DNA from: Eubacteriales bacterium
Lineage (GTDB): Bacteria > Bacillota > Clostridia > Lachnospirales > Lachnospiraceae
Direction: 5' to 3'
Assembly: GCA_030524745.1 (NCBI GenBank)
Contig: JAUNGC010000012.1
Coordinates: 1-64,000, forward strand
Length of the DNA stretch: 64,000 nucleotides
A program made the translations under genes and the position numbers. The notes below the pieces were generated by a model, which was given only the letters and a program-made list of their open reading frames with translations, was not told where the DNA came from and ran no database searches. Shown in pieces: positions 32,833 to 50,444 of this stretch (its first letter is position 1; every line of letters starts with the position of its first letter).

Positions 32833-32839
32833 TGCGTTT

Positions 32840-34726: not shown

Positions 34727-36052
34727 ATGATGCGATTGATAGATGGCGCATATTTCTTTGAATGTGAAGATATGGTGTATCTTCGTAATGTGAATGACGG
34801 ACATGATTATATTTTTAACTCCATCGTCTCTGATATTCTCCGGTTTATCAAAGAGACTCCTGATTGCAGCGAGGAGATGCTTTGCGACCATCTGAAAGAA
34901 CTGTACGAGGTGGAGGATGGAGAAGAGTTTCGGCAGGACATTCATGCTTTCCTGGCGGAATTGATGGACAGCGGCCTGATCGGGTCTGAACAGTCCGCGT
35001 CCCCGTCAGATGATTCCGTCGTCGGGCAGGTAGAGCGGTTGTATGAGAAAAATGGCATGGTTTATTCCGCCGCCTTTGAACTGACATACCGCTGCAGTGA
35101 AAAGTGCATCCATTGCTATGTGGACGACGATTGTTCCGCGGCGGCGGCTCAGGAACTGACCGTTGAAGAATATAAGGATATTCTGCATCAATTAAAAGAA
35201 ATGGGATGTGTCAAACTTCTGCTCACCGGCGGAGAGGTTTGTCTGCGCCGGGATATGGCGGACATTGCAGGATATGCCGTAAAGCTTGGCTTTCTGGTGG
35301 ATATATATACCAACGGCATCAGCATGACGGACGATCAGTTCGGGGCGCTTTGCAACATGAAACTCAATAGCGTATCGTTCAGCCTCTATAGCGGTGATCC
35401 CGGGGTACACGACGCCATCACGCAGGTTCCCGGTTCCTTTGAAAAAACCCTGAAGAGAGCGATGATGTTTAAATGCGCGGGAGTGGATACCTTTATCAAA
35501 ACCGTGGTCATCCGGCAGAATCTGGATACGCTGGAAGAACTTTTCCGGCTGGGAGAGAGGCTTCATATTGATGTAACTCCCGCCACTTCCATTTCCAATA
35601 CCCATCTGGGAAGATCGGCGCAGACATTCCGTCTGGATACGCCCAAACTGCGCGGGCAGGCACTGCAAATTCTGAAAAAGTTCGGATATAAGCCCGCGCC
35701 CTCTGCGCAGCGGGATCTGGACGGGAGTGTCTGCAAGGCGGGCATTACCAGCCTTTCGATCGACCCTTACGGCGGCGTCCATCCCTGTCTGGCGTTTACC
35801 GCTCCCATCGGTAACGTGAGGGAAACTCCTCTGGAAAGGATCTGGCAGGAAAATGAATTCTTGAAATCGTTGCGTTCCTTCCGCTTTCGGGATCTTACAC
35901 CGGAATGCGCAACCTGCAGCTATCGGAATCATTGCGCGGTATGTCTGGGGGACGCCTATGAAGAATCGGGCGGCAGGTTCGGTCCCGGATGCGATAGCTG
36001 CCATTGGGCAAAGTCCTGTTATGAAGCCCTCTGGAATCCGGCGTGCGATTAA
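34727..36052 (+). CDS. Radical SAM/SPASM peptide maturase
   Basis: A 441-residue enzyme of the class that modifies ribosomal peptides. The N-terminal 90 residues resemble a PqqD-type precursor-recognition domain. The radical SAM [4Fe-4S] motif is Cys123-xxx-Cys127-xx-Cys130 (YRCSEKCIHCY), followed by LLTGGEVCLRRDM and the barrel. The C-terminal SPASM domain (about 335-441) has the Cys pattern for auxiliary clusters: CKAGITSLSIDPYGGVHPC, then CATCSYRNHCAVC and GPGCDSC. The GAGGCGG SD precedes ATG 34727. A 39-residue Cys-containing peptide gene follows 101 bases later and is the likely substrate. A thioether (sacti/ranthi-type) link is the most common chemistry for this architecture, but the product here is unknown. 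Confidence 0.9.
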   Translation: MMRLIDGAYFFECEDMVYLRNVNDGHDYIFNSIVSDILRFIKETPDCSEEMLCDHLKELYEVEDGEEFRQDIHAFLAELMDSGLIGSEQSASPSDDSVVGQVERLYEKNGMVYSAAFELTYRCSEKCIHCYVDDDCSAAAAQELTVEEYKDILHQLKEMGCVKLLLTGGEVCLRRDMADIAGYAVKLGFLVDIYTNGISMTDDQFGALCNMKLNSVSFSLYSGDPGVHDAITQVPGSFEKTLKRAMMFKCAGVDTFIKTVVIRQNLDTLEELFRLGERLHIDVTPATSISNTHLGRSAQTFRLDTPKLRGQALQILKKFGYKPAPSAQRDLDGSVCKAGITSLSIDPYGGVHPCLAFTAPIGNVRETPLERIWQENEFLKSLRSFRFRDLTPECATCSYRNHCAVCLGDAYEESGGRFGPGCDSCHWAKSCYEALWNPACD

Positions 36053-36153
36053 CGGATCTGGCAGAGGAAAGGGTACAGGGCGGCAATGGATTACCAGGAT
36101 TATACCGTCAAGGAACGTGAGGTATAAAATAAATATGTGAAAGGAGACTCCCT

Positions 36154-36273
36154 ATGAAAAAGACTTATGTAAAGCCGGTTATGACGGCAAAAGAACAGCG
36201 TGTGGCCAGCATGGGCGCATGCGGCAAGTCGAAGGCTTCCGGCTGCGGAGCATTGGTTCTGAAAACTTCCTGA
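36154..36273 (+). CDS. Candidate RiPP precursor peptide (39 aa)
   Basis: A short gene directly behind the radical SAM maturase. AAAGGAGA lies 7 bases before ATG 36154. The product starts MKKTYVKPVM, a leader-like start common in clostridial precursor peptides, continues with TAKEQRVASM, and ends in a Gly/Ala/Ser/Cys-rich core, GACGKSKASGCGALVLKTS. It has two Cys seven positions apart and no membrane segment. Position, SD strength and composition support a real substrate of the maturase. Whether the Cys residues are cross-linked, and whether it is secreted or kept in the cell, is open. No ABC exporter is adjacent, but a peptidase cluster follows. Confidence 0.75.
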   Translation: MKKTYVKPVMTAKEQRVASMGACGKSKASGCGALVLKTS

Positions 36274-36299
36274 TCCGCGGTCTGAACTGACGATCCGGA

Positions 36300-36330
36300 C
36301 GGGGACTTCGGCAAAACGCCGAAGTCCCCG
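36300..36330 (+). promoter_or_regulatory. Strong hairpin between the precursor and the peptidase cluster
   Basis: CGGGGACTTCGGC pairs with GCCGAAGTCCCCG (13 bp, five-base loop AAAAC). No T-tract follows, so it may be a partial attenuator or a 3' stabilizer that keeps precursor mRNA abundant relative to downstream genes. Confidence 0.65.
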
Positions 36331-36403
36331 CCGGAGAAATTGACGAAAAACCTTCCTGCTCTGCCCGGCTGTCCGGGCGGAATTATGATAGATGGAGGCG
36401 TAT

Positions 36404-37234
36404 ATGGAAAAACGAATCATTCTCAAAGGGCTTCGGGTGGAAGAATTCATTCATCCCAGAGAAGTACAACTGCAGGATTCTGTCATCAACAGTCCGACGG
36501 TCCGAAAGCTGATCGAGTCGGTTGGCGATGTGAATCTCCGGATCAATAAAACGCGGATTCAGGGCACGTACATCCAGTTGTATCCCCATACCGCGCCCCG
36601 TGTGTTTGCAATTTTGAAAGATGTCTGCCGTATTCTGGACCATTCCGATATTCCGGAGTTATATGTATGGAAAAGCATGAATAACAGCATTATGCCCTGT
36701 ACGGCGGAGAAGGATTATCTGATTCTGTCCGATTACGTGCTGGAACAGTATGACGACGGGATGCTTTACTATGGTTTTGGCAATGCCATCGCCATGATCC
36801 GTGCGGGACATGTGAAGCTGACTACTGCCGCAGCCTATATGGGCTGCAATATCTGGACGGTTCTTCCGCAGATGAAATTCAAGGAATATCTCCATGCCGC
36901 CGACGCCACCTCGGACCGCGGGGGCCTGCTGGCCTGTCAGTCCCTTGCGGCAGCGGCGCGGTGCCATTTCCTGGAACTGGGTATGCCTCCTGCCGTGAGC
37001 CGTACCATGTTTGCCACGGATGAGGAAGCGGCGGATTATATCGAGCGCTATCTGTTCTCCGTGGCAGAGGAAAATGACCGTCAGCGCCTGACCACCCGCC
37101 TTGGCGAGATGTGGCAGTCGGCGGTTTACTTTGAGGCGGCCGCCAATCTGATGCTTGCCGATATGTACGTGTGGTATCGGAAGGAATATAAGCCGCTGCT
37201 GGAGAAATACCGTCGGGAGGGGGGATATCTGTGA
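36404..37234 (+). CDS. M48-like pseudopeptidase, first of three paralogues
   Basis: A 276-residue protein aligning with the M48 peptidase two genes downstream. LYVWKSMNNSIMPCTAEKDY, then LILSDYVLEQYDDGMLYYGF, corresponds to the segment leading into the active helix. The zinc motif is gone: where the third paralogue has GHELAHIRYGH, this one has GNAIAMIRAGH, so both His ligands and the catalytic Glu are missing. A downstream TSDRGGLLACQS matches the ADRGAA segment. It cannot be a zinc peptidase and may be a scaffold or substrate-binding partner. GGAGG is 5 bases before ATG 36404 (ATG 36392 overlaps the SD). It overlaps the next gene by 4 bases. Confidence 0.75.
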   Translation: MEKRIILKGLRVEEFIHPREVQLQDSVINSPTVRKLIESVGDVNLRINKTRIQGTYIQLYPHTAPRVFAILKDVCRILDHSDIPELYVWKSMNNSIMPCTAEKDYLILSDYVLEQYDDGMLYYGFGNAIAMIRAGHVKLTTAAAYMGCNIWTVLPQMKFKEYLHAADATSDRGGLLACQSLAAAARCHFLELGMPPAVSRTMFATDEEAADYIERYLFSVAEENDRQRLTTRLGEMWQSAVYFEAAANLMLADMYVWYRKEYKPLLEKYRREGGYL

Positions 37235-38031
37235 TAATTATGCCGGAACAATATCAGTTGGAAGAGGACAGCAGACTGATAGAGAAGATCGTAAATCACG
37301 AAGTGGCTGTTAAGATTTTTGACTGGATCAAATCGGAACATTTGGATGAAATTTACAATACCGTTTATGATTCCTCCTTTCTGAGGCTGAACGATACCGT
37401 TGCGCCGGCGCTGATGCAGCAGCTTCGCCGTGCCTGCGAGTTGTTCGGCCTGGAGGAGGTTCCGCCCGTATATGTGCTGCGGGATTTTGATGACACCATC
37501 AGCATCGGCGGCATTTCAACTCCCTTTCTGATCATTGCCGACCGCTATCTGGAAATGCTGGAGAGGGAGCGGCCGGAACTTTTGCTGGGCGTTTTGGCCG
37601 CTCAGGTCGGCGCGATTCAGGCGGGACACCACAGGGGACTGATTTTGTCCTGGCTGCTATCTTCCGTCGCGTCTCAGCTTCCGATCCCCGGCTTCATCCT
37701 GGGCGCGCTGGACGGCTTAATCAATGACTGGAAGCGCTGCAGGCTGTTTACCTGCGACAGGGCCATGTATCTGGCCGTGAGGGATTACCCTCTGGCGTTG
37801 CGGGGCATTCTGGCGGGGACGGTTCCCACCGATATTCTGGACAATATGGCGCTGGGTACCAAAAAGGATGCTTATCAGGCCCAGGTGAGGACTTTTATGG
37901 AAAACGGAGCGCTGGATGGACTCATCAATATGGCGAACTCTTTTCTTTCCGACACCAGTTGGCTGCCTCCCCGCTGTCATGCATTAGAAGAGTTTGCAAA
38001 TTCTCAAAGGAGGGTGTCGAATGGCTGCTGA
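37231..38031 (+). CDS. M48-like pseudopeptidase, second paralogue
   Basis: A 266-residue paralogue of the flanking genes. VPPVYVLRDFDDTISIGG and FLIIADRYLEMLERERPELL match the M48 pattern. The active helix reads LAAQVGAIQAGH, so HExxH is lost here too; LFTCDRAMYLA matches the later Asp-Arg segment. A hydrophobic stretch (about 128-150, LILSWLLSSVASQLPIPGFI) may contact the membrane. GTG 37231 is chosen: it overlaps the previous stop (GTGA) and lies behind GGAGGGGGG, whereas ATG 37240 is too far from the SD. Confidence 0.72.
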   Translation: MIIMPEQYQLEEDSRLIEKIVNHEVAVKIFDWIKSEHLDEIYNTVYDSSFLRLNDTVAPALMQQLRRACELFGLEEVPPVYVLRDFDDTISIGGISTPFLIIADRYLEMLERERPELLLGVLAAQVGAIQAGHHRGLILSWLLSSVASQLPIPGFILGALDGLINDWKRCRLFTCDRAMYLAVRDYPLALRGILAGTVPTDILDNMALGTKKDAYQAQVRTFMENGALDGLINMANSFLSDTSWLPPRCHALEEFANSQRRVSNGC

Positions 38032-39646
38032 TTTCAGACATGAGCAGGAACGGATGGCATGGGGCCTGCTGGAAAAGAATTCCGTGGTTCGTTTTGTGGT
38101 GGATGCCTACCAGGAATTTGTACAGGACCTGACTACCAACGCTTCCGCAAAAGGGCGCAATTTCCCGGTCACGCAGGAGACGGCGCCGCGGCTGTACCGG
38201 CTTTATCGTCTTGCGGCGGAACGGGTGGGAGTGAGCGAGCCGGTGCCGCTATATTTACAGATGGAATACAATCTGCAGGCAAAAACGGCAGGTACCGATG
38301 GGGACTGCGCTATTTTCGTTGACAGCGCCTGCATCGAGCAATATTCCGACACCCGCCTGCTTGCTTTGTTCGGGCATGAATTGGCCCATATCCGCTACGG
38401 ACATGTCCGGATGCTGAATATCAATGAAATGATGGACCAGGTGCTGACCTGGATCCCTTTTGGAGGCGTGGCTGCGGAGACGTTTAAGGCAACTCTGCTG
38501 GAATGGCGCAGGTTTGCAGATTATACCGCAGACAGAGGCGCAGCCATCGCGGCAGGCAGCGCAGACGCGGTTTTACAGAACCTGAGTCAAAGCATGGGAA
38601 GAGAACTGGACAGTGAAGGTGTGGATGCCGTGCTTCGGGAGGTTCCCGATGAAAAAGATCTGAAAATGGGCGTGACGGGTACGGCGCTGTTTCAGATCAT
38701 GATAAATTCCATTCAGGTACCCTACGGCGTTTGGCGCATGAAGCAGTTGAAGCAGTGGTGCGCGTCGGAGACCTGCCGGCAGACATTTCCGACCGTTTAC
38801 TATGGGACGCGCTCCGGATTCGGCCTGGAAGATGCGGATGATGGCGCGGCGCTGTATGAACAGTTCCGGGAAATGTGGGAAAAAAACAGGAAACGGGCGC
38901 TTGCTCTTCTGCATGCCGCGGCGGACTGCGGAAATATGCGCGCCAATACCCGGCTGGGCCGGTATTACTTAAACGGTATGGACGGCCTGAGAAAGGATGC
39001 GCACAATGGCCTGCTGCTTCTGCGGACGGCGGCATTGGCAGGTGATCCCGAAGCCTGGTACATACTGGCGGGGTGTTTTGAAACGGGATGCGGCAGTTTA
39101 CTGCCGCAGGATTCGGAGCGTTCAGCCTGGCTGTACTGTCTGGCGGCGTCTTCCGGCTACGGAGAGGGCGGCGACGGGAATTTAAGGCAGCTGCCTGCGA
39201 TCAGTCCCAAAAGCATGGAGAGCCTGATGAACTGGTTTACCGAAAATTTTTATGGAGGTCCTGCCATTTTCAATGAACTGGCGCCGGCGGAGGGATTGAA
39301 TTCCGATTGCTGTCCCGATATCGACGCCCTGCGGACCTGGCTCTGGATTCCCGGAAATGAGACTGTCTATATGACAGAGTTCGATATGGAGCAAAACGGG
39401 GGATTTTGCAGGGCAATTGCGATTGCAGCGACCGGCATTTATGTATTTGACGGTCAGGGACTGCCGTTTCGCCTGCCCTGGAAAAAGTTGAAAAGCTGCA
39501 GGATAGACGCGCGGAAAAAAGGGGAGAGAGTTACCCTGTTTCTGAATGAAAAGCCTCTTTGCAGCTACAACGCAAAACCGCCTGAACGTGCGGTAGGCGT
39601 CATGCTGGTTAAGATCAGAAAGATTCTGAACCCACAGAAATCATAG
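38021..39646 (+). CDS. M48-family zinc metallopeptidase with Sel1 repeats and PH-like tail
   Basis: A 541-residue protein, the only one of the three paralogues with an intact zinc motif: LFGHELAHIRYGHVRM (near residues 114-129). The third ligand position reads RFADYTADRGAA, so Asp replaces the usual Glu, which is unusual. Sel1-type repeats follow (about 285-385; MRANTRLGRYYLNGM, DPEAWYILAGCFETGCG). The C-terminal domain (about 455-541, IAATGIYVFDGQGLPFRLPW) resembles a bacterial PH-like fold. There is no signal peptide. AAGGAGGGTG precedes ATG 38021, inside the end of the previous gene. It is a natural candidate for cleaving a peptide or a protein partner of the cluster. Confidence 0.82.
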   Translation: MAADFRHEQERMAWGLLEKNSVVRFVVDAYQEFVQDLTTNASAKGRNFPVTQETAPRLYRLYRLAAERVGVSEPVPLYLQMEYNLQAKTAGTDGDCAIFVDSACIEQYSDTRLLALFGHELAHIRYGHVRMLNINEMMDQVLTWIPFGGVAAETFKATLLEWRRFADYTADRGAAIAAGSADAVLQNLSQSMGRELDSEGVDAVLREVPDEKDLKMGVTGTALFQIMINSIQVPYGVWRMKQLKQWCASETCRQTFPTVYYGTRSGFGLEDADDGAALYEQFREMWEKNRKRALALLHAAADCGNMRANTRLGRYYLNGMDGLRKDAHNGLLLLRTAALAGDPEAWYILAGCFETGCGSLLPQDSERSAWLYCLAASSGYGEGGDGNLRQLPAISPKSMESLMNWFTENFYGGPAIFNELAPAEGLNSDCCPDIDALRTWLWIPGNETVYMTEFDMEQNGGFCRAIAIAATGIYVFDGQGLPFRLPWKKLKSCRIDARKKGERVTLFLNEKPLCSYNAKPPERAVGVMLVKIRKILNPQKS

Positions 39647-39670
39647 ATATGATACAGGAGGGGATATGTT

Positions 39671-40066
39671 ATGGATAGCAATTTTATGATCGCCACATTA
39701 ACTGCGGCGGCAGCGGTCGGCGTTTTTGCGGCGGTGAAGAACGGACGGAAAAAGAAAACAGACTGGGCCGCCATACAAATTGTAGTCGAGGTATTTGGCG
39801 CGGCGCAGGCAAAAGACTGGTTTGAAGAAAAAACAGGAGGAGAGACGAAGGGCATGCGCCTGCTGACGGCTTATCTGACCCCTGAAATTCTTCGGGAATT
39901 GTCTGTCGACAGGGAAATTCCGGATCCGGCGCACTATCTTGTGCTGGGCGTTCTGGATGAAAGGAATCAGGTTCTGGACTATCAGTTTGTGAATTTTGAG
40001 CGATTGGAAGAAGGCTTCCGGAAGCTGCTGGACGATAACGGCGGAAGAGTCGTGATTACCTATTGA
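39671..40066 (+). CDS. Small cluster protein with N-terminal membrane segment
   Basis: A 131-residue protein I do not recognise. A hydrophobic segment (about 4-22, NFMIATLTAAAAVGVFAAV) precedes a basic patch (KNGRKKK) and a soluble domain. The C-terminus (LVLGVLDERNQVLDYQFVNF ... GGRVVITY) resembles that of the protein at 40956 (LLFGIDEKGEIKDIEFVEAE ... NNIIRICS), suggesting a shared fold. AGGAGGGG precedes ATG 39671. Confidence 0.7.
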   Translation: MDSNFMIATLTAAAAVGVFAAVKNGRKKKTDWAAIQIVVEVFGAAQAKDWFEEKTGGETKGMRLLTAYLTPEILRELSVDREIPDPAHYLVLGVLDERNQVLDYQFVNFERLEEGFRKLLDDNGGRVVITY

Positions 40067-40137
40067 TGAATGCGAAAGAACGGCTGCGGAAGTTTATATT
40101 CTGATTTTTATGGAGAAGCAAAAAGGAGGCGGCAAAT

Positions 40138-40500
40138 ATGGGTACCACATTGGAGGTCGCTGTGCAGTTGGTTTCCGCTGTGATCGAAGAAGGAAAAAAG
40201 GAACTGGAATTTATTGAAAACACAGTGGTGCCAAAGCTGCGGGCAAAAGTTGCCGGATGTCTGAATCGAAGCAATATCGGCCGGGCTGTACTGCAGGTTA
40301 TCCGGAAGGCCAAAATCAAACTCAAAGAAGACCGGCTGAAGCTGGCGATACAGGAAATGGTGGACCTGGAAGGCGTTCCGGTTATCACAGTGGATGTGCT
40401 GGACGAAATGATGGATGAGATTCAGCTTGAAATTGAACTGGAATGCGAACAGGTCGGCCCGGATCTGCGGCCGGGTGATATCATTTATGAACAGGTGTAA
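40138..40500 (+). CDS. Hypothetical cluster protein (120 aa)
   Basis: A soluble protein of mixed helices and strands, not recognised. It starts MGTTLEVAVQLVSAVIEEGK, has a basic middle (IRKAKIKLKEDRLKLAI) and an acidic C-terminus (DEMMDEIQLEIELECEQVG). AGGAGGCGG precedes ATG 40138. The strong SD and tight spacing to its neighbours mark it as part of the operon. Confidence 0.7.
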   Translation: MGTTLEVAVQLVSAVIEEGKKELEFIENTVVPKLRAKVAGCLNRSNIGRAVLQVIRKAKIKLKEDRLKLAIQEMVDLEGVPVITVDVLDEMMDEIQLEIELECEQVGPDLRPGDIIYEQV

Positions 40501-40520
40501 ATTGGTCGGGGAGGATGTCA

Positions 40521-40925
40521 ATGATATACGATTTTGAGTCGGGCTATTCAGAAAAGACAGAAAAACCTCAAATTGTCAGGAAGGACAGCGCCCTGGATGC
40601 GATACAGCGGAAACTCTATGAGGCGTTGGAAAAGGAGAAATCCGTCAGGGTATTTACGATGCAGGACGCAAAGTTGTATTTTTTGCAGATGCGGGAAAAA
40701 AATCCGGCGGCATATAAGTGTCTGGTGCATATTGAAAGCAGCGGGCAAGGGCATGAGATCATCCAGATTCTGCTGGGGGAAAGCGGAGAACCTTTGTATT
40801 CTACCAGCAAGGAAGTTTATGGACGAAAGCTTCGCGCCGATGCATTGGAACAGGCGGTTGTCGACCGCCTGGCGGGCAGAACCGGCTTTATTATGGAATG
40901 CGGGAAGCCGGAAGAAGCTTTGTAA
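40521..40925 (+). CDS. Hypothetical cluster protein (134 aa)
   Basis: A soluble protein, not recognised. The first half is charged and helical (ALDAIQRKLYEALEKEKSVR, VFTMQDAKLYFLQMREKNPA) and the second half beta-rich (YKCLVHIESSGQGHEIIQIL). ATG 40521 is chosen because the SD GGGGAGG ends at 40514, directly against ATG 40515. Confidence 0.68.
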   Translation: MIYDFESGYSEKTEKPQIVRKDSALDAIQRKLYEALEKEKSVRVFTMQDAKLYFLQMREKNPAAYKCLVHIESSGQGHEIIQILLGESGEPLYSTSKEVYGRKLRADALEQAVVDRLAGRTGFIMECGKPEEAL

Positions 40926-40955
40926 ATTACATTCAGAGATAAAGGAGAGAAAATT

Positions 40956-41306
40956 ATGGATCCGATTACATGGGGGCTGTTTCTCATCGCAATAGCGGCT
41001 GCGGCGTACGGGATTACAAAACTGGTTATTCTTACGGCGACCTGGCTTAAAACAAAGCTGAAAAAAATTCTGAGCGGAAAGAAAGAGGTTGTCGGCATTA
41101 ACGGCGATAAACTCAAAAGCATTCTTGCGGACATTGCCGAGGAAACGGAAGCGATTTCCGTAGATGATCTGGATATGCTGCTGTTTGGGATCGACGAGAA
41201 GGGTGAAATCAAAGATATCGAATTTGTGGAAGCTGAAGAGGGGCTGGATTCGGCCGCCGCTGCATTTATGGACAGAAATAATAATATCATCCGCATTTGC
41301 AGCTGA
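40956..41306 (+). CDS. Small cluster protein with N-terminal membrane segment (116 aa)
   Basis: A hydrophobic N-terminal helix (about 3-28, PITWGLFLIAIAAAAYGITK) is followed by a basic stretch (KTKLKKILSGKKEVV) and a small soluble domain whose end resembles that of the 131-residue protein at 39671. The two are probably divergent paralogues. AAGGAGAG precedes ATG 40956. Confidence 0.7.
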   Translation: MDPITWGLFLIAIAAAAYGITKLVILTATWLKTKLKKILSGKKEVVGINGDKLKSILADIAEETEAISVDDLDMLLFGIDEKGEIKDIEFVEAEEGLDSAAAAFMDRNNNIIRICS

Positions 41307-41320
41307 AAGGAGTGCAGAAT

Positions 41321-42628
41321 ATGAAACTTGCAGTGCTTTTTTCCGCGTCCAGCCGGCCTTTGTCCGGCGGCAGCGATTGGGAAACGATCCGTGATGCAGT
41401 GAAAGAGTGTTTTATTCAGGCATACGGCACAGATTCTGATCTGCAAATCGGATTTGGAGAGGCGAATGCGCCCGGGTACGACGTAGTGCTTGCCTTTGAC
41501 GCATACCCGAATATCGGCTTTAACCCCATCCAGAAGCGCAACCAGTTCCGGGACGGGGTAGCCCGGCGGCTGTATGAACTGCTGCCCCGGGAATCCGGCT
41601 ATGCAGGCAGAGTGGCTGTCTGCCTGGAAAAAGAGATCAGACGTGCGGCCCCGCAGTCTGCCGGTACGGCAAAGCCTTCGCAGGAGCCGGGCCCGCAGGA
41701 AGAATACCGCAGTTTCGCCCGGGAATTTACGGCGGAGGAACCGAAATTTACCTTTGACCGCCTTGTTCTGGCAGAGGATGTGCGACAGCGCATCCTGGAA
41801 CAGATCTGCATCCTGGAAAACCGGGATAAGCTGTTTCGGGAATGGGGGCTTGCCGCCATTGCCAGTCCTTCCGTGCTTCTGAATCTTTACGGCGATTCCG
41901 GAACCGGCAAATCCATGGCGGCAGAGGCGATAGCGAACCGCCTGGGCAAAAAGATTCTGCGGGTTTCTTATGCGGACATTGAGAGCAAATATCATGGGGA
42001 AGGCCCAAAGCGTCTGAAGGGGATTTTCCTGGCGGCCACTGAGCAGGACGCCGTGCTGTTCATCGATGAGGCGGACTCCCTGCTTTCCGCGCGCCTGAGC
42101 AATGTCACGCAGGGTTCCGAACAGGCGATCAATTCCATGCGCAGCCAGCTGCTCATCAGCCTGGAAAATCACGACGGTATTGTAATTTTTGCCACGAATC
42201 TGATTGAGAATTATGATAAGGCTTTTCGCACCCGTCTGCTCAGCGTGGAGATGAAGCGTCCGGACGCCGCCCAGCGACGGCAGATCTGGTACAATCATTT
42301 GTATCCTGTGGGAGAGGGCCGCATCCGGCTGAATATTCCGCTGGCGCAGGACATAGATCTGGAAAAACTGGCCGGCTTTGATTTTTGCGGCCGGGATATC
42401 CGCAACGCGGTGAAGCAGGCGTGTGTCGCGGTAGTGGTCCGGGGCGGGAATATTGTCTGCCAGGAGGATCTGATGTGCGCCTGTGAACGCATTGAAGCGG
42501 AACTAAAGGCATTGGCCCGCGCCTCTGCAAAAGTCAATCCCGGGATCAGGCCTCTGGCGGAAGAGGAGGAAAATAAGATTACGCAGCAGCTTAAGCAGAA
42601 GCTGGCGGGAAAGAAAGCGGAATTATAG
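41321..42628 (+). CDS. AAA+ ATPase of the cluster
   Basis: A 435-residue protein. The N-terminal 120 residues are specific to this family (LAVLFSASSRPLSGGSDWET; ANAPGYDVVLAFDAYPNIGF). A Pro/Gln-rich linker leads into one classic AAA+ module: Walker A GDSGTGKS (about 191-198), Walker B AVLFIDEADSLLS, sensor 1 GIVIFATNL and an arginine-finger region AFRTRLLSVE. It resembles FtsH/Spastin-type unfoldase motors that remodel proteins or feed proteases. AAAGGAG is 7 bases before ATG 41321. Its neighbours suggest it powers a protein-handling machine together with the M48 and Hsp70-like proteins. Confidence 0.88.
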   Translation: MKLAVLFSASSRPLSGGSDWETIRDAVKECFIQAYGTDSDLQIGFGEANAPGYDVVLAFDAYPNIGFNPIQKRNQFRDGVARRLYELLPRESGYAGRVAVCLEKEIRRAAPQSAGTAKPSQEPGPQEEYRSFAREFTAEEPKFTFDRLVLAEDVRQRILEQICILENRDKLFREWGLAAIASPSVLLNLYGDSGTGKSMAAEAIANRLGKKILRVSYADIESKYHGEGPKRLKGIFLAATEQDAVLFIDEADSLLSARLSNVTQGSEQAINSMRSQLLISLENHDGIVIFATNLIENYDKAFRTRLLSVEMKRPDAAQRRQIWYNHLYPVGEGRIRLNIPLAQDIDLEKLAGFDFCGRDIRNAVKQACVAVVVRGGNIVCQEDLMCACERIEAELKALARASAKVNPGIRPLAEEEENKITQQLKQKLAGKKAEL

Positions 42629-42657
42629 TTTTTCTTTCGATAAAAGGAGGAAACGGT

Positions 42658-43815
42658 ATGATGGAATTTACAGAGGAGCAAAGAACTCTGTTGATAGAAC
42701 AGGCCCGGCAATGTCTGGAACAGGCAGAACAGGGACAATCAACCCGCGATATTATGGCCCGGATTTATATGGACGGACTGGATCATAAGACGTTGGAACA
42801 GGGACAGATGATGGCGGAAGCCATTCTGGAAGGTGTAAACGCATTTGACAGCAATTTCGCCGCGGCGAAGGATGATCTGGAACGCTGGCTGGACAAAACC
42901 CTTTCCAAAATGGCGGCCGGCAAATCGCCCCGGGAGCGCTGTGCCTGTTGGTTAAAGGTTACCGCCGCTGTCAATGCGGTATCGGCTTTGGATAATTTGC
43001 AGCTTGACGAAGCGGAGAAAGACAGGATACTGGCAGAATTGGATGCGATTACGATCAGCGAAGAGGAAGCCACCCCTGAACTGGAGTCAGAGCTTTATAA
43101 GGGGGTAAAAGCTGCTCTGGAAAACTCCGGCGTGATGTTCTGTGCGCTGGTTGGCCAGCAGGAGTTATTTCGGGGGATGGAAAATATAAGCGACGCCGCT
43201 GAGGTGCTGCTGGATTTCGGCAGCCGGGAGATCAATTTCCGCGCGGTGGCATCCATGATCGCTTATACCAATGTCAAGAACGGTACTTTTGATAATATTC
43301 CGGCGGACATGAAACCGGAACAGATCACCGTCATGGTATGCGCGCAGATCGAACAGATGCGGATAATGGATGCGGTCAGAAGAAAGCAAATGACGATGGA
43401 AACCGCAGCGCTGCTTTTGAAAATTCTGGGCGCTGTCTCTATGACCGTGCTGGCGTTAGAGACTTCAGCGCTGATCGGCATATTGGCGATGAAGCTGCAG
43501 TTTGGCATTCTTTCCATTCCGATCGCCCTGTTTATGGGATTGGCTTTCGGCCATTTTCTGACCGGCGGTTTTGAAGAATGGTGCAGAGCGAGCGACGAAG
43601 CGGTGGATTTCTGCAGTGTTCCTGTTCAGGCGCTGGTTGTTGCGGCGGACAATCTGGCCGACTATATGCGGGAAAATGTCTGGCCGGAGTTTTGCCGGAT
43701 CGTCAGTTCCGTAGGGGACCGTCTGAAGCAGTATGCCGCAGGAATTGCCGGCAGAAAGACAGAACCGATGGAAGAAAGCGCTGTCGGGATGACATTGGAG
43801 CCGATTCCGGATTAA
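42658..43815 (+). CDS. Membrane protein of the cluster (385 aa)
   Basis: Not recognised. A helical, acidic cytoplasmic part (1-240) is followed by two hydrophobic segments (about 245-270 and 275-300, LLLKILGAVSMTVLALETSA; LSIPIALFMGLAFGHFLTGG) and a C-terminal helical part. It could anchor the AAA+ and Hsp70-like partners at the membrane. AGGAGG lies 7 bases before ATG 42658. Confidence 0.72.
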   Translation: MMEFTEEQRTLLIEQARQCLEQAEQGQSTRDIMARIYMDGLDHKTLEQGQMMAEAILEGVNAFDSNFAAAKDDLERWLDKTLSKMAAGKSPRERCACWLKVTAAVNAVSALDNLQLDEAEKDRILAELDAITISEEEATPELESELYKGVKAALENSGVMFCALVGQQELFRGMENISDAAEVLLDFGSREINFRAVASMIAYTNVKNGTFDNIPADMKPEQITVMVCAQIEQMRIMDAVRRKQMTMETAALLLKILGAVSMTVLALETSALIGILAMKLQFGILSIPIALFMGLAFGHFLTGGFEEWCRASDEAVDFCSVPVQALVVAADNLADYMRENVWPEFCRIVSSVGDRLKQYAAGIAGRKTEPMEESAVGMTLEPIPD

Positions 43816-43839
43816 GTTGTGACAAAAAGGAAGATGGAT

Positions 43840-45237
43840 ATGCAAAAACTCCATATTTTAAAAATAAACGGCCATGCGGTGCTGAATTTTCTGGATCTGC
43901 AGGAACATTTCTCGCCCTGGGCGATCTGGGAACAGCAGGAAGCTTACGCTTCCTTTGTACGGGTGCACAGTTTGCCTCTGACGGTCTGGCAGGTCAGAGA
44001 AAACGGCGTGCTCCAGCCGCTTCAATATGCGGGTAAGGAATTCTGGATGGATTTACTGGAAAAAAATCTGTGCGGCGCGGCATTTCCTGCCGGAAGAGAC
44101 GCGTCGGAATGTCTGGATGCTTTGCTCCGCGGGAAATACAAAGATGAACTTCTCAAAGAGAACGCATCCGGACTTCTGGAGCAGGAACGTCTGGCGCAGC
44201 GGATTGATGAGAAACTTCGGTATATTATGTCCGGCGCCAGACTGAAGGAGACTCCGGAGGATATCAAAACGGCCATTTTGCTGCTGGCAATCTGTCAATT
44301 GGCTGAGATGGATGCTGAAAAGCAGGATTTCCAGAGATGGACAGAGACGCTGCAGAGCGATACAACAAAAACTGCGTCCGGGGAGAAGGAGGAAAAAAGT
44401 CAGGATCATTCTGTCTCCGGGACCGCAAGCCGGACGGAGACAGCAGCGGCGGAGCAGGACATTAATGATTTCCCGCAGGCGGACAGAGTTGCCCTGAAGG
44501 CGCGGACGCAGCCCTATTGCTATTGGTATCATACCGAAGACAGGCTGACCGGTAAAAAGATCAGGACTGTTCGGATAGAGGCGATATCCGGCGAACAGGG
44601 CGACGGGCGGGTCACGCTTTTGTTTTACCGTCCGGACGGAAGTCAGGCGCAGAAAGTGGAATTACTGGCGGGAGAATACCGGGACTGCACGGTATCCGGG
44701 GGCAGGCTGATCGGTTTTCTTCCGACTATGAGCATCAGCGAAACGTTGTGTATGGCGCGCAGTAACTACCATTCTTCGGAAATCCGAATTATTCCCCGCA
44801 ACGCCAGCGAGTGGATTCTTAATGCAGACGCGGAAACCGCCCGCAAGATCACCAGCTTTTCTGCCGGCGACAATACCAGAGACGGATTCTTATATATCCG
44901 AAATGGCAGGCTGATAAAAGCTTACTATAAGCCTGCTGAAAACTACACCATCCGCCAGAAGCTGGATTTGATCGATGACCGGCTTGTGGAGGTTCGTCTG
45001 ATACCGGAGGGCTATATCCTGCTGACAGAGTATGGCGAGGTTATTTCAAGCGATCCTGAATGGAACGGCCGTACCGGCGTGATAACCCTGTATCCCCGGA
45101 ATAAAGCGGCGTGGCCGGCCAGTCTGGAAGCTGATCCGGAAAATATGCGGGAGTTTGCCCGGGATGAGAGCGGCGGGAATTTTGCGGTTCGGACTGCGGA
45201 CGACAGGGTGCTTTGCTGCTGGCAGAAAGGAGAGTAA
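43840..45237 (+). CDS. Hypothetical cluster protein (465 aa)
   Basis: Not recognised. An N-terminal domain (1-170, starting MQKLHILKINGHAVLNFLDL) is helical. A low-complexity Thr/Ser/Glu/Ala linker follows (about 178-215). The C-terminal half is beta-rich, with several Tyr/Gly strand pairs (GFLYIRNGRLIKAYYKP; VEVRLIPEGYILLTEYGEVI), suggesting a beta-sandwich or partial propeller. GGAAG is suitably spaced for ATG 43840; in-frame starts at 43819 and 43834 are less well placed. It ends one base before the next start. Confidence 0.68.
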   Translation: MQKLHILKINGHAVLNFLDLQEHFSPWAIWEQQEAYASFVRVHSLPLTVWQVRENGVLQPLQYAGKEFWMDLLEKNLCGAAFPAGRDASECLDALLRGKYKDELLKENASGLLEQERLAQRIDEKLRYIMSGARLKETPEDIKTAILLLAICQLAEMDAEKQDFQRWTETLQSDTTKTASGEKEEKSQDHSVSGTASRTETAAAEQDINDFPQADRVALKARTQPYCYWYHTEDRLTGKKIRTVRIEAISGEQGDGRVTLLFYRPDGSQAQKVELLAGEYRDCTVSGGRLIGFLPTMSISETLCMARSNYHSSEIRIIPRNASEWILNADAETARKITSFSAGDNTRDGFLYIRNGRLIKAYYKPAENYTIRQKLDLIDDRLVEVRLIPEGYILLTEYGEVISSDPEWNGRTGVITLYPRNKAAWPASLEADPENMREFARDESGGNFAVRTADDRVLCCWQKGE

Positions 45238-45238
45238 T

Positions 45239-46150
45239 ATGGAGAAATATTCATTTCGGCATCAGGGGGATCAGGGGCAGAGAGGGCAGAATGTTTCGTC
45301 CGGAGCCGTAACGGCTTCCTCTCAATTCAATCAGAGAGATGTTTTGCTGAGACGTAAGAAAGAAGTCTCCAAAATGATAAAAGGATTGGATGCAGCCCAG
45401 GAAAAAAACATGGCGGATTACAGGTATGCGTTGAGAAGCTGCAGTGCGCAGTGGAAAGAACTGCGTTGCTGTCAGCCGGAGTATAAAAAACAAAATCTGG
45501 TGCTGGAAGCTTATTACCAGAGAGGAAAGCTGATGGATTATCTGGAAGAGGTCGTGAAATACGCTTATGCGGACGTCCGTCCCGCAGATACGGCGGAAAA
45601 GCTGGCTGTGAAGGGTTACAGCAATTACCTTTTCGTTCTGAAAAGCCTCTTTGATGGACTGCGGGAAAAATATGACGCTTTTGAAGAACCCGGGGAACAG
45701 GAAGATAAAACGCCGATTCAAAGCTTTCTGATGAATGAGTGCAGAAGCAATCCTTTTTATGACGAGTGGTTCGCGCTCACAGACAGGATACGGGAGTTGC
45801 TTGAAAAGGGGAAAATACGTCCCTTAAGCGCCCAGGAGTGCGCGCCGGTTTTCGGAGAACTGGATGTGACGGAATATACGCTGAGACGGGATCACGAAAA
45901 ACTGACCGTATATCTTCGGGAAAAACAGCGCGCCATCCGTAACAGGATCGTAAAAATGAAGCAGGAGAGCGAACGCGGAAAAGCGCTGTATGAAGCCCTT
46001 TTACAGGTATTGACGCCGGAATTGTTTGATAAGATGGATCCGGATACGCTCGAAGCGGAGCAAATGAGCATAGAACAGATCCGGGACCAATACCGTGCTC
46101 TTGCAGACCGGATCAATGAAACAATTCTGCTCCGGTTTCCCAGAGCATAA
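45239..46150 (+). CDS. Hypothetical coiled-coil cluster protein (303 aa)
   Basis: Not recognised. The start is Gln/Gly/Arg-rich and polar (YSFRHQGDQGQRGQN). The rest is almost entirely helical and charged, with a likely coiled coil near 200-250 (HEKLTVYLREKQRAIRNRIV). A conserved Cys pair (SCSAQWKELRCCQPEY) is visible near 68-80. AAAGGAGAG precedes ATG 45239, which is one base after the previous stop, so translation is coupled. Possibly a co-chaperone or adaptor for the Hsp70-like protein encoded next. Confidence 0.68.
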   Translation: MEKYSFRHQGDQGQRGQNVSSGAVTASSQFNQRDVLLRRKKEVSKMIKGLDAAQEKNMADYRYALRSCSAQWKELRCCQPEYKKQNLVLEAYYQRGKLMDYLEEVVKYAYADVRPADTAEKLAVKGYSNYLFVLKSLFDGLREKYDAFEEPGEQEDKTPIQSFLMNECRSNPFYDEWFALTDRIRELLEKGKIRPLSAQECAPVFGELDVTEYTLRRDHEKLTVYLREKQRAIRNRIVKMKQESERGKALYEALLQVLTPELFDKMDPDTLEAEQMSIEQIRDQYRALADRINETILLRFPRA

Positions 46151-46190
46151 CGTCGGAAAGCACAGATAGAAAAGGCAGGAGGTAATTATC

Positions 46191-48173
46191 ATGCAAAAAA
46201 CATTGGGGCTGGATTTTGGACACTGCGAAGTAGCCATGTCTTTGACAATGGAGGGAAAGAAACCGGAAAATCTGATCCTTGACGGCAATAAAGAAAAAGT
46301 GATACCTGCGCAGATTGCTTTGACAGATGCTCAGATTCATATGTTGGCTGAGGGAAAATGGGACTGCCAGACGTTGGAAAAACTGGGCGAGATCGCAATT
46401 GGTAATGAGGCTGATCCGAAAAACGATGAGAATATGGATTCCTGCACCTTTATGTACTTCAAAAAAGCCCCGGCGTTTTTTCAGGAGATTTTTGAGAACA
46501 AGGTGCCGCGCGGCGCGTTGATGGCGGCTTATCTTTATCAGTTGATGAAACAGGTATTTGACTATAATCCTGATTATCTCGATCCGGAAGACCGCGGGAA
46601 TATCAGCCTGGTGGTTGGATGTCCCACAACACGGGAATGGACCGGCGAGGAGGAAATGAGACAATATAAGGATCTGATCTGCAGCGCCGTCGGGATTTCC
46701 AACGTCAGCATTATTCCGGAGTCCCGTGCCGCCATGTTCAGCAGCATTGAAAGCACCCAGTCCTGCATTTCGGCCGGCAACGGCGCGGTGGTTTTCGACT
46801 TTGGTTCCTCCACTGCCGACTGTACTTACATGCTTGCCGGACGCCGGTGCATTGAATATAGCTGGCGTTTGGGCGCGCAGGAAATTGAGTCCCAGATGGC
46901 AAACGTTGCATTTGAAGGGCAGAAACCCTCGCTTCGTTCCCGGATTTATGTCACCAGCCAGTTGCGCAGACAGAAAGAATTATATTATAACGGTTCCTTC
47001 GGTCCGAAAGGACAGCGCCTTTTTTATGATACGGTAGATCGGGACGGACAGGATATCGAGGCATATATCCGTGTCAATGACGAGCAGATGGGGCAGGTCG
47101 TCAACGGAGAGGAACATGAGATCGGGATTCTCTGTGACAGCGATCAATTCCGGGCAGGCACCTGGATGCAGCTATGCCGTGAATTTTTCCGGACGGCAAA
47201 GGAGATCATGGACGAGGAAGAACTTCCCTGCGCCAATATCGTTCTTACCGGCGGAGCCAGCAAGATGGCGTTTGTCCGGAATTTGTGCCGCGAAATTTTC
47301 GGGGAGAACGTTAAGATCCATGTGGAAAAAAATCCGAGTTTCAGCGTCGCCAACGGCTTAGGGTGGGTCAGCGCCATTGATGCGCGGGTGCCCGCCATAG
47401 CGGGCAAGACAGAGACGGAAATTTTGTCAAACCGTAATATTGCGGTGGAAAGTCTGGTGCAGAACATCGCTGCGGAACTGCAGAAGGTGGTGGCGGAAGT
47501 TATTTCCCAGACAGCAGATAAATGGGCGGCAGAACCGGGTGAACATTCCGTGTCCGAACTGATTGAAATGGCGAAGGCGGAGATGGATACCGGGGAGAGA
47601 AGAGAGCAAATTAAGAAGATCATAGACAGTCAACTCAATTCCTGGCGGAATTCTTTCCAGGAGGCGGTGCAGAAATGCGTGAATGCAAACAGCGGCGAAC
47701 TGATGACGGATAAGATTGCTGAGGGCGTCGTTTTGACGAAGGATGTCTGGAAATATATCAGCGACGATTCGCTTTACGGCAGCGTCAGCCTGGACGACCT
47801 TTTAAAAGGCATTAATATGAACGGTCTGCTGAACAAGACGCTTCAGGTGGTAGCCGGATACCTCACGATGTGCATCCTTCTTGTGGCCCTGCCGGGTATC
47901 GGTCTCTTTGCCTTGCTGGCCGCCTGGCTTGCGGGAAAACTCACAGGCGACTTTTTAAATCGCCGGAGTATCACGCAGCTTAGGGATCAGGCGCACCGCG
48001 AAAGCATGAAGCCCAAGATCAAGAGTTCCGTCAGCAACGGGAAAGTCCTGAAAGAACTGACGAAATCCGTTTCCGAGCAGTTTAAAGAAATGGAGAAAAA
48101 CTATTCTGAAATGGTCGGCAATACTGTTCGGATCGCTTATGAGGTCGTGACCCTGAAGCATTTTCAAATATGA
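46191..48173 (+). CDS. Hsp70/actin-fold ATPase with C-terminal membrane segment
   Basis: A 660-residue protein. The actin/Hsp70 nucleotide fold is clear: phosphate loop 1 GLDFGHCEVA (about 6-15), phosphate loop 2 VVFDFGSSTADCTYM (about 199-213), and the adenosine motif IVLTGGASKMAFVRNL (about 349-364). Unlike DnaK there is no beta-sandwich substrate domain. The C-terminal 270 residues are helical and include a hydrophobic hairpin (about 550-583, YLTMCILLVALPGIGLFALL) near the end. This suggests a membrane-associated ATPase that uses its helical tail to bind partners. AGGAGG precedes ATG 46191. Its place between the coiled-coil protein and the Ycf46-like ATPase supports a shared complex. Confidence 0.82.
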   Translation: MQKTLGLDFGHCEVAMSLTMEGKKPENLILDGNKEKVIPAQIALTDAQIHMLAEGKWDCQTLEKLGEIAIGNEADPKNDENMDSCTFMYFKKAPAFFQEIFENKVPRGALMAAYLYQLMKQVFDYNPDYLDPEDRGNISLVVGCPTTREWTGEEEMRQYKDLICSAVGISNVSIIPESRAAMFSSIESTQSCISAGNGAVVFDFGSSTADCTYMLAGRRCIEYSWRLGAQEIESQMANVAFEGQKPSLRSRIYVTSQLRRQKELYYNGSFGPKGQRLFYDTVDRDGQDIEAYIRVNDEQMGQVVNGEEHEIGILCDSDQFRAGTWMQLCREFFRTAKEIMDEEELPCANIVLTGGASKMAFVRNLCREIFGENVKIHVEKNPSFSVANGLGWVSAIDARVPAIAGKTETEILSNRNIAVESLVQNIAAELQKVVAEVISQTADKWAAEPGEHSVSELIEMAKAEMDTGERREQIKKIIDSQLNSWRNSFQEAVQKCVNANSGELMTDKIAEGVVLTKDVWKYISDDSLYGSVSLDDLLKGINMNGLLNKTLQVVAGYLTMCILLVALPGIGLFALLAAWLAGKLTGDFLNRRSITQLRDQAHRESMKPKIKSSVSNGKVLKELTKSVSEQFKEMEKNYSEMVGNTVRIAYEVVTLKHFQI

Positions 48174-48184
48174 GGTGAGAGTTT

Positions 48185-49996
48185 ATGGCACAAAATGTGG
48201 TGGAAAAGGTGCTGCGGCGCTGTGAAAGCGCCCTGCGTGCCCGCATTCCGATCATTTATATTAAGACGGATTCTGACAGGCTGATTCAGCAGATCGTGGA
48301 TTCCGACCGGCTGGTGCTGCGCATCCGCAAATTCGGCGCCATGGGAAAACGTCCGGAACGTGAATACCGGACGGATGAAAACTATGTCAGAGAAAAGCCG
48401 GCGAATCATCTGACGGAGGACATTGGTCTGAAAAAGTCCTGGCTGCTCTGGGATTATCCGCGGATTTGTACATACAAGGTGCCGAAGGAGTGGAAAAATC
48501 AGGAAGGCTATGAAGCTTATATTATGGCCCATGAGGATCCGTGCAGCCGGCAATATGAGATTTTGCAGAACAGCGTAGTTATTCTCTATTCCTCCCAGGT
48601 ACAACTGTCACCCATGATGCAGGCATATACAGAGATCATCGAGGTGGATTATCCCGGCGCGGAAGAAATCCGCAACCTGATTCTGAATATGGCGAAGCTT
48701 TTCGGTGACGATTATCTGGAAATAGACGAGATGTATCAGAGCCGTCTTTGCAGCGAATTTTCCGGACTGACCACGGATGAGATCGACGTTACCATGCGCA
48801 GAATCCTTTCTGTGCCCACGCAGACGCCGTCGGCTTCTCCGCTGCTTGACGAGGCGGCAGTGATGGACATCATCCGCCGGCGGAAGGAGCAGAAGATGGA
48901 AACCAGCGTGCTGGAACTGTGCAAACAGCCCGGCAGCAGCATCGGCGGGATGGATAAACTCCGCAATTGGCTCAGCGCACAGAAATCCGCGCTGGAAAAC
49001 GCGGAAATACTGCGCCGCAGGAAAGGCATTCTTCCGCCCAAGGGCGTGCTGCTGTGCGGTATTCCGGGCTGCGGAAAGTCCGAAGCCGCCAAGCTTACCG
49101 CCCAGGAATTCGGCCTGCCGCTTCTGAAAATGGACATGGGAAGGCTGATGGATAAATATCAGGGAGAATCAGAGCGGAATATGACGGAAGCCCTGCGCAT
49201 GGCGGAAGCTATGTCTCCGTGCGTGTTGTGGATTGATGAATTGGAAAAGGGGTTTGGCGGAGCCGGAACCGACAATGACTCTTCCTCTTTCAAGCGGATG
49301 TTTGCCACAATGCTGGGCTGGATGCAGGACAATACCAGGCCGGTATTCATTTTTGCAACGGCAAATAACATTGGAGGACTGCCGAAAGAGTTTTTCAGGA
49401 GCGGCCGGTTTGACGCTCTTTTTGCGGTGTATCTTCCGCTGATGCAGGAGTGTGTGCAGATTTTTAAAGCATGTATGAACCGTTATAAATTGGAGAGCGG
49501 AGAATCCCTGTTTGAACCCGGTTGCGATGACGATGACCTTTTGGAGTATGTGATCGATACCTGCCTGGTATCCCCGAAACGTCCCCGTATTGTTGTCGGG
49601 GCGGATATTCAGAAGATCGTGAATATTACTGTCCGTGGGCTGGGCGGCCAGGAACGGATCAGCCGGAAGCAGTGGCGAACCGCTTTGATCCGCACATGCA
49701 GCGATCCTGATGTAGGGGTATACGGGGACGGGGAAGAAAATGTGGACAGCATTGCCGTCAGTTATTGCAGAATGCTGCGAAAGGGTTTGCAGTCAACCTC
49801 CGATCGGGTCTTGTTTTCCACAGAGGATTATCAGCCCCGGAATGCGAAAGATAAGAAGAATATTCTGGTGAAGTCTGACTCCGACAGCTTTACCAATGCC
49901 TATGACAGAGCGGTGTATGATATGCTGCTGGAACGGATCAACGAGATGGCCCCGGAAGTGGAGGAAATGGAACGCAGACAGGTGCTGATGAGGTGA
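48185..49996 (+). CDS. Ycf46-like AAA+ ATPase
   Basis: A 603-residue protein. The N-terminal 250 residues resemble the divergent first domain of Ycf46-type proteins (RARIPIIYIKTDSDRLIQQI; ENSVVILYSSQVQLSPMMQA). The AAA+ module has Walker A GIPGCGKS (about 292-299), the family-typical LPLLKMDMGRLMDKYQGESE, Walker B CVLWIDELEKGFGG, and sensor 1/arginine region PVFIFATANNI and FFRSGRFD. Ycf46 relatives are poorly understood ATPases; some regulate carbon metabolism. It starts 11 bases after the Hsp70-like gene with GAGGTGAGAG as SD. It is the second AAA+ motor of the cluster. Confidence 0.87.
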   Translation: MAQNVVEKVLRRCESALRARIPIIYIKTDSDRLIQQIVDSDRLVLRIRKFGAMGKRPEREYRTDENYVREKPANHLTEDIGLKKSWLLWDYPRICTYKVPKEWKNQEGYEAYIMAHEDPCSRQYEILQNSVVILYSSQVQLSPMMQAYTEIIEVDYPGAEEIRNLILNMAKLFGDDYLEIDEMYQSRLCSEFSGLTTDEIDVTMRRILSVPTQTPSASPLLDEAAVMDIIRRRKEQKMETSVLELCKQPGSSIGGMDKLRNWLSAQKSALENAEILRRRKGILPPKGVLLCGIPGCGKSEAAKLTAQEFGLPLLKMDMGRLMDKYQGESERNMTEALRMAEAMSPCVLWIDELEKGFGGAGTDNDSSSFKRMFATMLGWMQDNTRPVFIFATANNIGGLPKEFFRSGRFDALFAVYLPLMQECVQIFKACMNRYKLESGESLFEPGCDDDDLLEYVIDTCLVSPKRPRIVVGADIQKIVNITVRGLGGQERISRKQWRTALIRTCSDPDVGVYGDGEENVDSIAVSYCRMLRKGLQSTSDRVLFSTEDYQPRNAKDKKNILVKSDSDSFTNAYDRAVYDMLLERINEMAPEVEEMERRQVLMR

Positions 49997-50014
49997 TAAT
50001 ATTATGTTAGTGAA

Positions 50015-50299
50015 ATGAAAAATCTGAGCCCCAAGGTGCGCAGGTGGGTCATGGACTGGTATTTCGGCGCCGGATATCCTGCAGATATCATAGAAGGCGT
50101 AACCGTGCAAATGCTTGTGGAAGAAGCAGGGTTAAAGCCGATGAATGCCTTTATTGCGATGGATTGGCTGATGAAGGATCCGGAAGCGGCGAAGTTTGCG
50201 CTGACCCATGTGAAATCCTCTGCAATAGAGGAGGCGGAAAACACAACGGACATACTCCCGGAAGACTCCGTTCCGGATGAGGCGATTGAGGATGTTTGA
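50015..50299 (+). CDS. Last gene of the cluster, hypothetical (94 aa)
   Basis: A small helical protein, not recognised (LSPKVRRWVMDWYFGAGYPA; an acidic tail follows). ATG 50015 has no SD of its own. A four-codon minicistron (ATG 50004, behind AGGTGA, encoding MLVK) ends in a TGA that overlaps this ATG, so the gene is probably translated by termination-reinitiation. The repeat copy 2 starts about 15 bases after its stop. Confidence 0.62.
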   Translation: MKNLSPKVRRWVMDWYFGAGYPADIIEGVTVQMLVEEAGLKPMNAFIAMDWLMKDPEAAKFALTHVKSSAIEEAENTTDILPEDSVPDEAIEDV

Positions 50300-50435: not shown

Positions 50436-50444
50436 AATTAAAAC

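Follow-up and report, generated by a model that had tools for sequence, protein, structure and literature searches.

A composite gene cluster of a Lachnospiraceae bacterium that joins a recurring Hsp70-fold and AAA+ core with a radical SAM peptide arm

The stretch of DNA analysed here, termed the window, comprises 64,000 nucleotides of a Lachnospiraceae genome (Eubacteriales bacterium, assembly GCA_030524745.1, contig JAUNGC010000012.1, positions 1 to 64,000), and between positions 34727 and 50299 it holds a cluster of 16 open reading frames (ORFs; g01 to g16), all on the plus strand, with spacings of -11 to +130 bases between neighbours if the chosen start codons are used, alternative starts being possible for g03, g05, g10 and g13. 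This agrees with an initial annotation made from the sequence alone, which had counted fifteen or sixteen genes of the same direction. The cluster is a composite of a core (g11-g16), an arm for ribosomally synthesized and post-translationally modified peptides (RiPPs; g01-g05), and a third module (g06-g10). A promoter-like site on the plus strand precedes g01 (34636-34664, TTGAAC-17-TATAAT, 10/12 match), but to speak of one clear promoter, as had been done, is too strong, because the window contains 20 such sites and 16.8 ± 4.4 are expected from shuffled sequences, a count that is not above chance. The terminator that had been placed behind the last gene is found as a hairpin running into a U-stretch (50409-50434, plus strand, z -5.1), although a consensus scan missed it.

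Within the core, g14 (46191-48173) encodes a protein of 660 amino acids with an Hsp70-type nucleotide-binding domain, a fold that covers about residues 1-400 in the structural model and is followed by a helical C-terminus with a single hydrophobic stretch of about 36 residues (549-584). Unlike in Hsp70/DnaK, this helical part stands where the substrate-binding domain would be, and the model has no β-sandwich, with no strands past residue 378 and low confidence in the blocks 521-600. The hydrophobic stretch is modelled as two low-confidence helices and likely forms a membrane hairpin; of the Hsp70-fold ATPase with membrane hairpin that had been annotated, the nucleotide-binding domain is therefore well founded and the hairpin likely only. 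A LeoBC match (3.3e-6) was also noticed across the helical part. The next gene, g15 (48185-49996), encodes an AAA+ ATPase that we take to be Ycf46-like, with relatives of 30-46% identity at the loci L028-L035 and L038 (L numbers denote loci outside the window). The two AAA+ proteins of the initial annotation are both borne out by PF00004 matches (g15, 9.3e-27; g10 of the third module, 1.4e-24), and Pfam, which also holds a MoxR model, puts PF00004 far ahead in both cases. In PHROGs, several AAA families match g15, and there are only weak matches for g13, g14 and the macro domain protein described below.

The other core genes encode a helical membrane protein (g11, 42658-43815, hydrophobic windows at 247-303, relatives at L028-L031, L033-L035 and L038), a protein for which no Pfam or PDB relative was found (g12, 43819-45237), a mostly helical protein (g13, 45239-46150, phmmer E values of 5e-7 and 3e-5 at L029 and 3e-8 at L030), and a small protein (g16, 50015-50299). 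The model of g11 is all-helical and of low confidence (mean pLDDT 65), and a search of the PDB with it gave no match below E 0.45, a result that speaks neither for a new fold nor for a known one. Relatives of g16 lie 3' of a zincin gene at L029-L031, L033, L034 and L038, and in all these cases the zincin has an HExxH motif and is about 210-230 amino acids long. The proteins g11, g12, g13 and g16 represent four recurring families without a Pfam family.

Most of the core, namely g11-g16 together with an HTH-type domain, is found again at 12 other loci in Bacillota and Synergistota, with the gene order shuffled. Counting the window there are 13 core loci, and the gene set is apparently a recurring and undescribed one. 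In a scan of GTDB contigs, in which the best 80 of 141 g14 relatives were kept, L028-L035 were the closest g14 loci (E 1e-79 to 3e-38). When the proteins encoded in the window served as queries, g12, g15 and g11 were found beside g14 at L028 and L031, g11, g12, g13, g15 and g16 at L029 (there with g11 twice) and at L030, g12, g15, g16 and g11 at L033, g11, g16, g12 (3e-5) and g15 at L034, and g11 and g15 at L035, while L032 has g12 and g15 beside g14 and then reaches its contig end. At L034, tblastn was used to read those genes that overlap long antisense ORFs. The HTH-type domain in the window forms the C-terminal part of a macro domain protein (32813-33871, plus strand, PF01661 7.2e-18), and its relatives at most other core loci are small proteins of about 180-210 amino acids that align with this part; they were found by phmmer at L029, L030, L031, L032, L033, L035 and L101, and by tblastn with relatives as queries at L028, L034 and L055. 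As a promoter-like site lies between the macro/HTH gene and position 34727, only linkage and not co-transcription is claimed for this gene.

A second subtype of the core (L023, L055, L101) shares g14, g15 and the HTH-type domain with the window; for g11 the connection runs through L016, and for g12 and g13 through models that contain L101. Rows that belong to a profile model match it by construction, and the independent evidence comes from the phmmer- and tblastn-type searches. L016 and L038 are one contig and were counted once, and L039, with an HTH-type protein, g14 and g12 only, was not counted. As L055 and L101 rank low among the best 80 of 141 relatives, more core loci may exist. The g14 family itself is wide, with the core making up a part of it, since the other 68 of the 80 kept loci, mostly cyanobacterial by title, show the g14 family and otherwise just two weak AAA+ matches (the partial L039 being among them). 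In the Lachnospiraceae, 13 of 397 genomes have a g14 relative, the window's own included; two of the other twelve have it with the core (L016, L023) and ten without. With a g15 profile, the window's own genome and nine others were matched among 361 genomes of the class, and the nine fetched stretches contain no g14. In the g14 tree, L028 of the Synergistota is, on a long branch, the sister of the window (99/97), which suggests a transfer between the phyla.

Some further observations concern the g14 family. A second type, which lacks the core, occurs within the Lachnospiraceae (L017-L022, L024-L027), and the eight members of this type in alignment A1 have a conserved C-terminal tail in common. 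At least two g14 copies are present at each of L029 (9980-16604) and L030 (4687-11899), one of the L029 copies being in pieces. A distant relative (L082) lies on a contig that is binned as Klebsiella pneumoniae, possibly by a binning error.

The RiPP arm begins with g01 (34727-36052), a radical SAM/SPASM protein with a PqqD-like N-terminus, as had been annotated, all three domains being above their Pfam cut-offs (PF04055 1.4e-21, SPASM 3.5e-11, PqqD 2.8e-7). The hallmarks of RiPP maturases are all present, namely the PqqD-like domain, the CX3CX2C motif and the SPASM cysteines, and the cysteines of the motif and of the SPASM part are invariant across g01 and its orthologues at L031 and L033, which are 40-42% identical to it. 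The second gene, g02 (36154-36273), encodes the cysteine-containing peptide of 39 amino acids that had been noticed already, a candidate precursor with the C-terminus CG-x6-CG-x-LV. At L031 and L033 a small ORF, for which a ribosome site can be seen by eye, lies in the same gap between the radical SAM gene and the M48-like genes, so that all three radical SAM loci have a candidate peptide at the equivalent position, and the three peptides have P, A, CG, CG and LV in common, in the pattern CG-x(4-6)-CG-x-LV. A scan of small ORFs for a C-terminal CG-CG pattern (15 sources, 14 loci) returned these three peptides and one overlapping-frame match in L023.

Three M48-like genes follow, g03 (36404-37234), g04 (37231-38031) and g05 (38021-39646). 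They had been described as paralogues, and their mutual similarity supports this (phmmer E 1e-9 to 2.8e-7), but only g05 passes the Pfam M48 model (PF01435, 1.3e-7) and has an intact HExxH motif (HELAH), in addition to a Sel1-like stretch under the cut-off (1.4e-4); by motif check, g03 and g04 have lost the motif. L031 and L033 also have three M48-like genes each, with the HExxH absent from all six. Relatives of g03/g04 stand alone at L137, and at L138 they are near a pair of macro and VWA genes. M48-like genes also lie beside dynamin-like GTPases (by eye) at L139 and L140, the latter adding an HTH-type gene and a weak g14-like match, and at L031 (18409-20325) a dynamin-like GTPase (by eye; LeoA match 1.4e-7) adjoins an M48-like or HTH-type gene.

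The arm is present at three of the 12 informative core loci (the window, L031, L033). Two gene orders occur among them, and the g14 tree places them on two branches, with the window separate from the clade of L031-L033; the window likewise lies outside this clade in the g15 tree, where its exact place is not settled. L032 was left out of this count because its 12.5-kb contig stops after g14; its genome has no radical SAM orthologue. The radical SAM cassette is missing from the nine remaining informative loci, and in the genomes of the 12 core carriers an orthologue (E ≤ 1e-50) was found only in those of L031 and L033 and is absent from the other ten, which means that the core exists without the peptide. 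Among 397 genomes of the family (E ≤ 1e-70) and 391 of the class (E ≤ 1e-60), two samples that overlap and in which only the best few candidates per genome were scored, no other has the orthologue, and a scan of IMG/VR gave three matches of 23-26% identity. With L032 set aside, the presence of the arm on two branches indicates either two joinings or one joining and several losses. The single linked system of the initial annotation thus holds insofar as radical SAM, peptide and M48-like genes are tied to the core at L031 and L033 also, but it is no indivisible block; the two parts come apart in one direction, as the core often stands without the radical SAM gene, and in none of the genomes searched was the orthologue seen apart from the core.

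The third module (39671-42628) was not found at other core loci. It consists of four small proteins, namely g06 (39671-40066) and g09 (40956-41306), which have N-terminal hydrophobic segments and a weak similarity to each other (0.0026), g07 (40138-40500) and g08 (40515-40925), and of the AAA+ ATPase g10 (41297-42628), the start codon of which is uncertain. The best plasmid match of g10 is an ATPase of Planktothrix agardhii p1 (43% identity over 70% of the length), and on this plasmid the AAA+ gene stands in a row with an Hsp70 and TPR protein (PF00012, 2e-18) and five small proteins of 103-125 amino acids. In a search of 12 proteins, g08 matched one of the latter (L144_4363, 4.2e-7) and g09 weakly another (L144_4756, 1.3e-3), there was no match for g06 and g07 on that plasmid, and by tblastn against plasmids g08 gave nothing at E 0.01. 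The g08-like Planktothrix protein resembles a part of the Hsp70/TPR protein there (1e-30), and a two-row model of the g08 family, of which the Planktothrix row is a part, also matches that protein. Because g08-like, AAA+ and Hsp70-type genes are found in one row on the plasmid, at least g08 and g10 can, by sequence similarity, be regarded as a cassette that elsewhere accompanies an Hsp70-type ATPase. A relative of g10 on a Synechococcus plasmid was considered as well, and its small neighbours did not match the small-protein models.

Around the cluster, a direct repeat of 300 nucleotides is found on either side (31417-31716 and 50339-50638, 93% identical), and the terminator-like hairpin lies within the right-hand copy. 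The region therefore looks as if it were an island between two mobile-element copies, since these repeats bracket it and carry copies of one gene, pieces of which are the ORFs at 31574-32056 and 50632-51633, presumably an Rpn-type element. In wider terms the repeats extend over 31417-32049 and 50339-51629 (86-93%), and the copies of that gene which they carry differ in length, one being shorter than the other. The GC content of the region (0.51) differs little from that of the flanks (0.49 and 0.52), there is no tRNA in the window, and Rfam gave no match at the gathering score, a single sub-threshold match being taken as chance. Between the macro gene and g01 lies an accessory VWA gene (33941-34606, plus strand; PF05762 2.1e-4, 21.2 bits, under the cut-off of 26.4), and the macro and VWA pair recurs at L138 (VWA 2e-81, macro 1e-53).

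Known systems resemble the cluster in parts. According to Kaur et al. 2020 (PMC7159879), FtsH-/VMAP-ternary conflict systems are built on MoxR and vWA proteins and have also a double FtsH AAA+ protein, and some predicted NTP-dependent conflict systems carry a radical SAM protein, a zincin and a small peptide. By gene content, the peptide-processing set of the cluster matches these ternary systems, with chaperone-type NTP-dependent ATPases, a zincin, a radical SAM(-SPASM) protein, a small peptide that is variable but has a conserved C-terminus, and additional helical proteins, the peptide motif here not being the FxSxx of that source. Unlike in the ternary systems, no MoxR family was matched in Pfam, and the VWA gene lies outside the recurring core, as only L040 has a VWA match among 17 loci (L028-L035, L038, L055 and L101 included). 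Since the MoxR-vWA pair is not found here, the cluster may be said to work like these conflict systems and not to be one of them. In the GAP1-N2 GTPase-centric systems, which that paper predicts to be conflict systems associated with the membrane, there is, as here, an Hsp70 protein that lacks a peptide-binding domain, but GTPase, tubulin, GrpE and DnaJ families are absent from the Pfam scans of the cluster, in which no search was aimed at GAP1. The initial annotation knew of no RiPP system with such protein-remodelling machinery, and term searches of the open-licence PMC literature gave no paper with this gene set, though an overlap with the supplementary lists of PMC7159879 is possible.

The order of PqqD, radical SAM and SPASM domains and the adjacent cysteine peptide are as in PqqD-fused maturases, which we take to be of the sactipeptide/ranthipeptide kind, but the M48-like partners are not, no transporter family was found, and of the 25 NCBIfam models shown out of 67 listed none reached its cut-off (best TIGR04545, 137.8 bits vs 500). 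With IetAS there is a likeness in g10, which scores 83.9 bits with the PADLOC IetA model, yet g10 reaches only 76.4 bits against an NCBIfam cut-off of 510, and Pfam scans gave no subtilase family. A cassette of Clostridia (L119-L122) consists of a regulator that by eye looks WYL-like, a small protein, a Ycf46-like AAA+ protein and a g11-like membrane protein of 500 amino acids; it resembles the core in the AAA+ architecture and the g11-like neighbour (matches at L119 and L120; profile comparison 86%, E 5.6e-6), but has no Hsp70-like gene in the fetched stretches. At L122, ubiquitin-like and E1-like genes follow downstream by eye. A link of the g12 N-terminus to this cassette turned out to be unsupported (4%).

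Taking together gene content, the predicted fold of g14, recurrence, linkage and the peptide pattern, we infer a membrane-bound NTPase machine for which a radical SAM peptide arm is optional. The likeliest role of this machine is in defence or stress, as a conflict system, and we favour the reading as a whole tentatively, with less than even confidence. In such a machine, g14 and g15 would assemble and remodel a complex at the membrane, together with g13 as a helical partner, the helical membrane protein g11, the small protein g16 and often a zincin, whereas g12, as an adaptor or sensor, and the HTH-type protein would sense or relay a signal, and a trigger would switch the complex. The predicted role of g01 is to modify the short peptide with two CG pairs (in the window and at two other loci), which the M48-like proteins, mostly dead by motif and with an intact site in g05, may bind or trim, and the modified peptide would be an effector or signal. 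A more specific version, possible and rather doubtful, sees here a new class of conflict machines, in which a membrane-embedded Hsp70-fold ATPase without a client-binding domain is coupled to a Ycf46-like AAA+ motor and stores a peptide that the radical SAM enzyme has modified and that M48-fold pseudo-peptidases hold, until a trigger frees it; the peptide arm would be exchangeable, and other members would use the zincin, small membrane proteins or dynamin-like GTPases.

Several points weigh against the favoured reading. PADLOC gave no convincing system match for the 10 proteins scanned, and by eye the flanks of core loci are mostly unlike defence islands. A defence-island reading of these flanks is weak, with few exceptions: at L033 there is a UvrD-type helicase with matches to GajB models, and at L035 (14661-17908) an Mcr-like pair (by eye) directly follows the core, its first protein matching a restriction-enzyme model (6.1e-21) and its second giving no match. 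The roles of g12 as a sensor and of g13 as a partner are deduced from position and sequence character; g13 is poorly conserved, its relatives sharing 7-22% identity with the window's copy, and a profile search gave no PDB relative of g11, g12 or g13 at E below 0.1. There is no g13 match at L028, where the HTH-type match is merely fragmentary, and at L035 g12 and g13 were assigned by position and then included in the profile models. L028, L035, L036 and L038 have long branches in the g14 tree, g14 has by tblastn only one distant plasmid relative (Calothrix) and none in phages, and IMG/VR contains no relative of it. M48-like relatives of g03/g04 occur without the radical SAM gene in 4 others of 368 family genomes (E ≤ 1e-15). 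The unfoldase/peptidase complex proposed initially can be no firmer than an inference, as the three radical SAM loci encode 9 M48-like proteins, 8 of which have no HExxH.

Among the alternatives, a membrane protein quality control, in which the Hsp70-like and AAA+ proteins extract or unfold membrane proteins for a zincin or M48 peptidase and the peptide regulates the protease, fits the parts list of AAA+ protein, zinc peptidase and Hsp70 fold, and also the zincins with HExxH alongside the core at six loci and the HELAH of g05. It is nevertheless unlikely, because the g14 model has no substrate-binding domain, nearly all M48-like proteins at the radical SAM loci lack the motif, J-domain and GrpE families are absent from the Pfam scans, and the patchy occurrence of g14 in 13 of 397 family genomes is unlike that of housekeeping genes. 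Improbable is also a sactipeptide-like antibiotic cluster with ATPases for export or self-protection: the PqqD-fused radical SAM/SPASM protein does adjoin a short cysteine peptide, but the maturase is absent at nine informative core loci and from 10 of the 12 core genomes, g01 reached no cut-off in the 25 NCBIfam models shown, and no transporter family turned up when the 16 genes were scanned with Pfam, in accordance with the missing adjacent exporter of the initial annotation. That unrelated modules became neighbours by chance between the mobile-element copies, the core alone being a system, is the least probable of all. In its favour are the direct repeats around the region and the module g06-g10, which no other core locus was found to have and which has partial counterparts on the Planktothrix plasmid. 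Against it, a differently ordered set of radical SAM, peptide and three M48-like genes adjoins the core on a second branch of the g14 tree, and the plasmid genes matched adjoin an Hsp70-type protein.

The cluster unites radical SAM peptide maturation with Hsp70/AAA+ machinery, which is a seldom-seen pairing, and it gives the question of what peptide-processing arms do in NTPase-centred bacterial systems a well-delimited set of genes that can be tested. In g14, an Hsp70 ATPase domain appears to act at the membrane without a client-binding domain, and it is plausible that the bacteria possess in this cluster a device for stress or self-defence.

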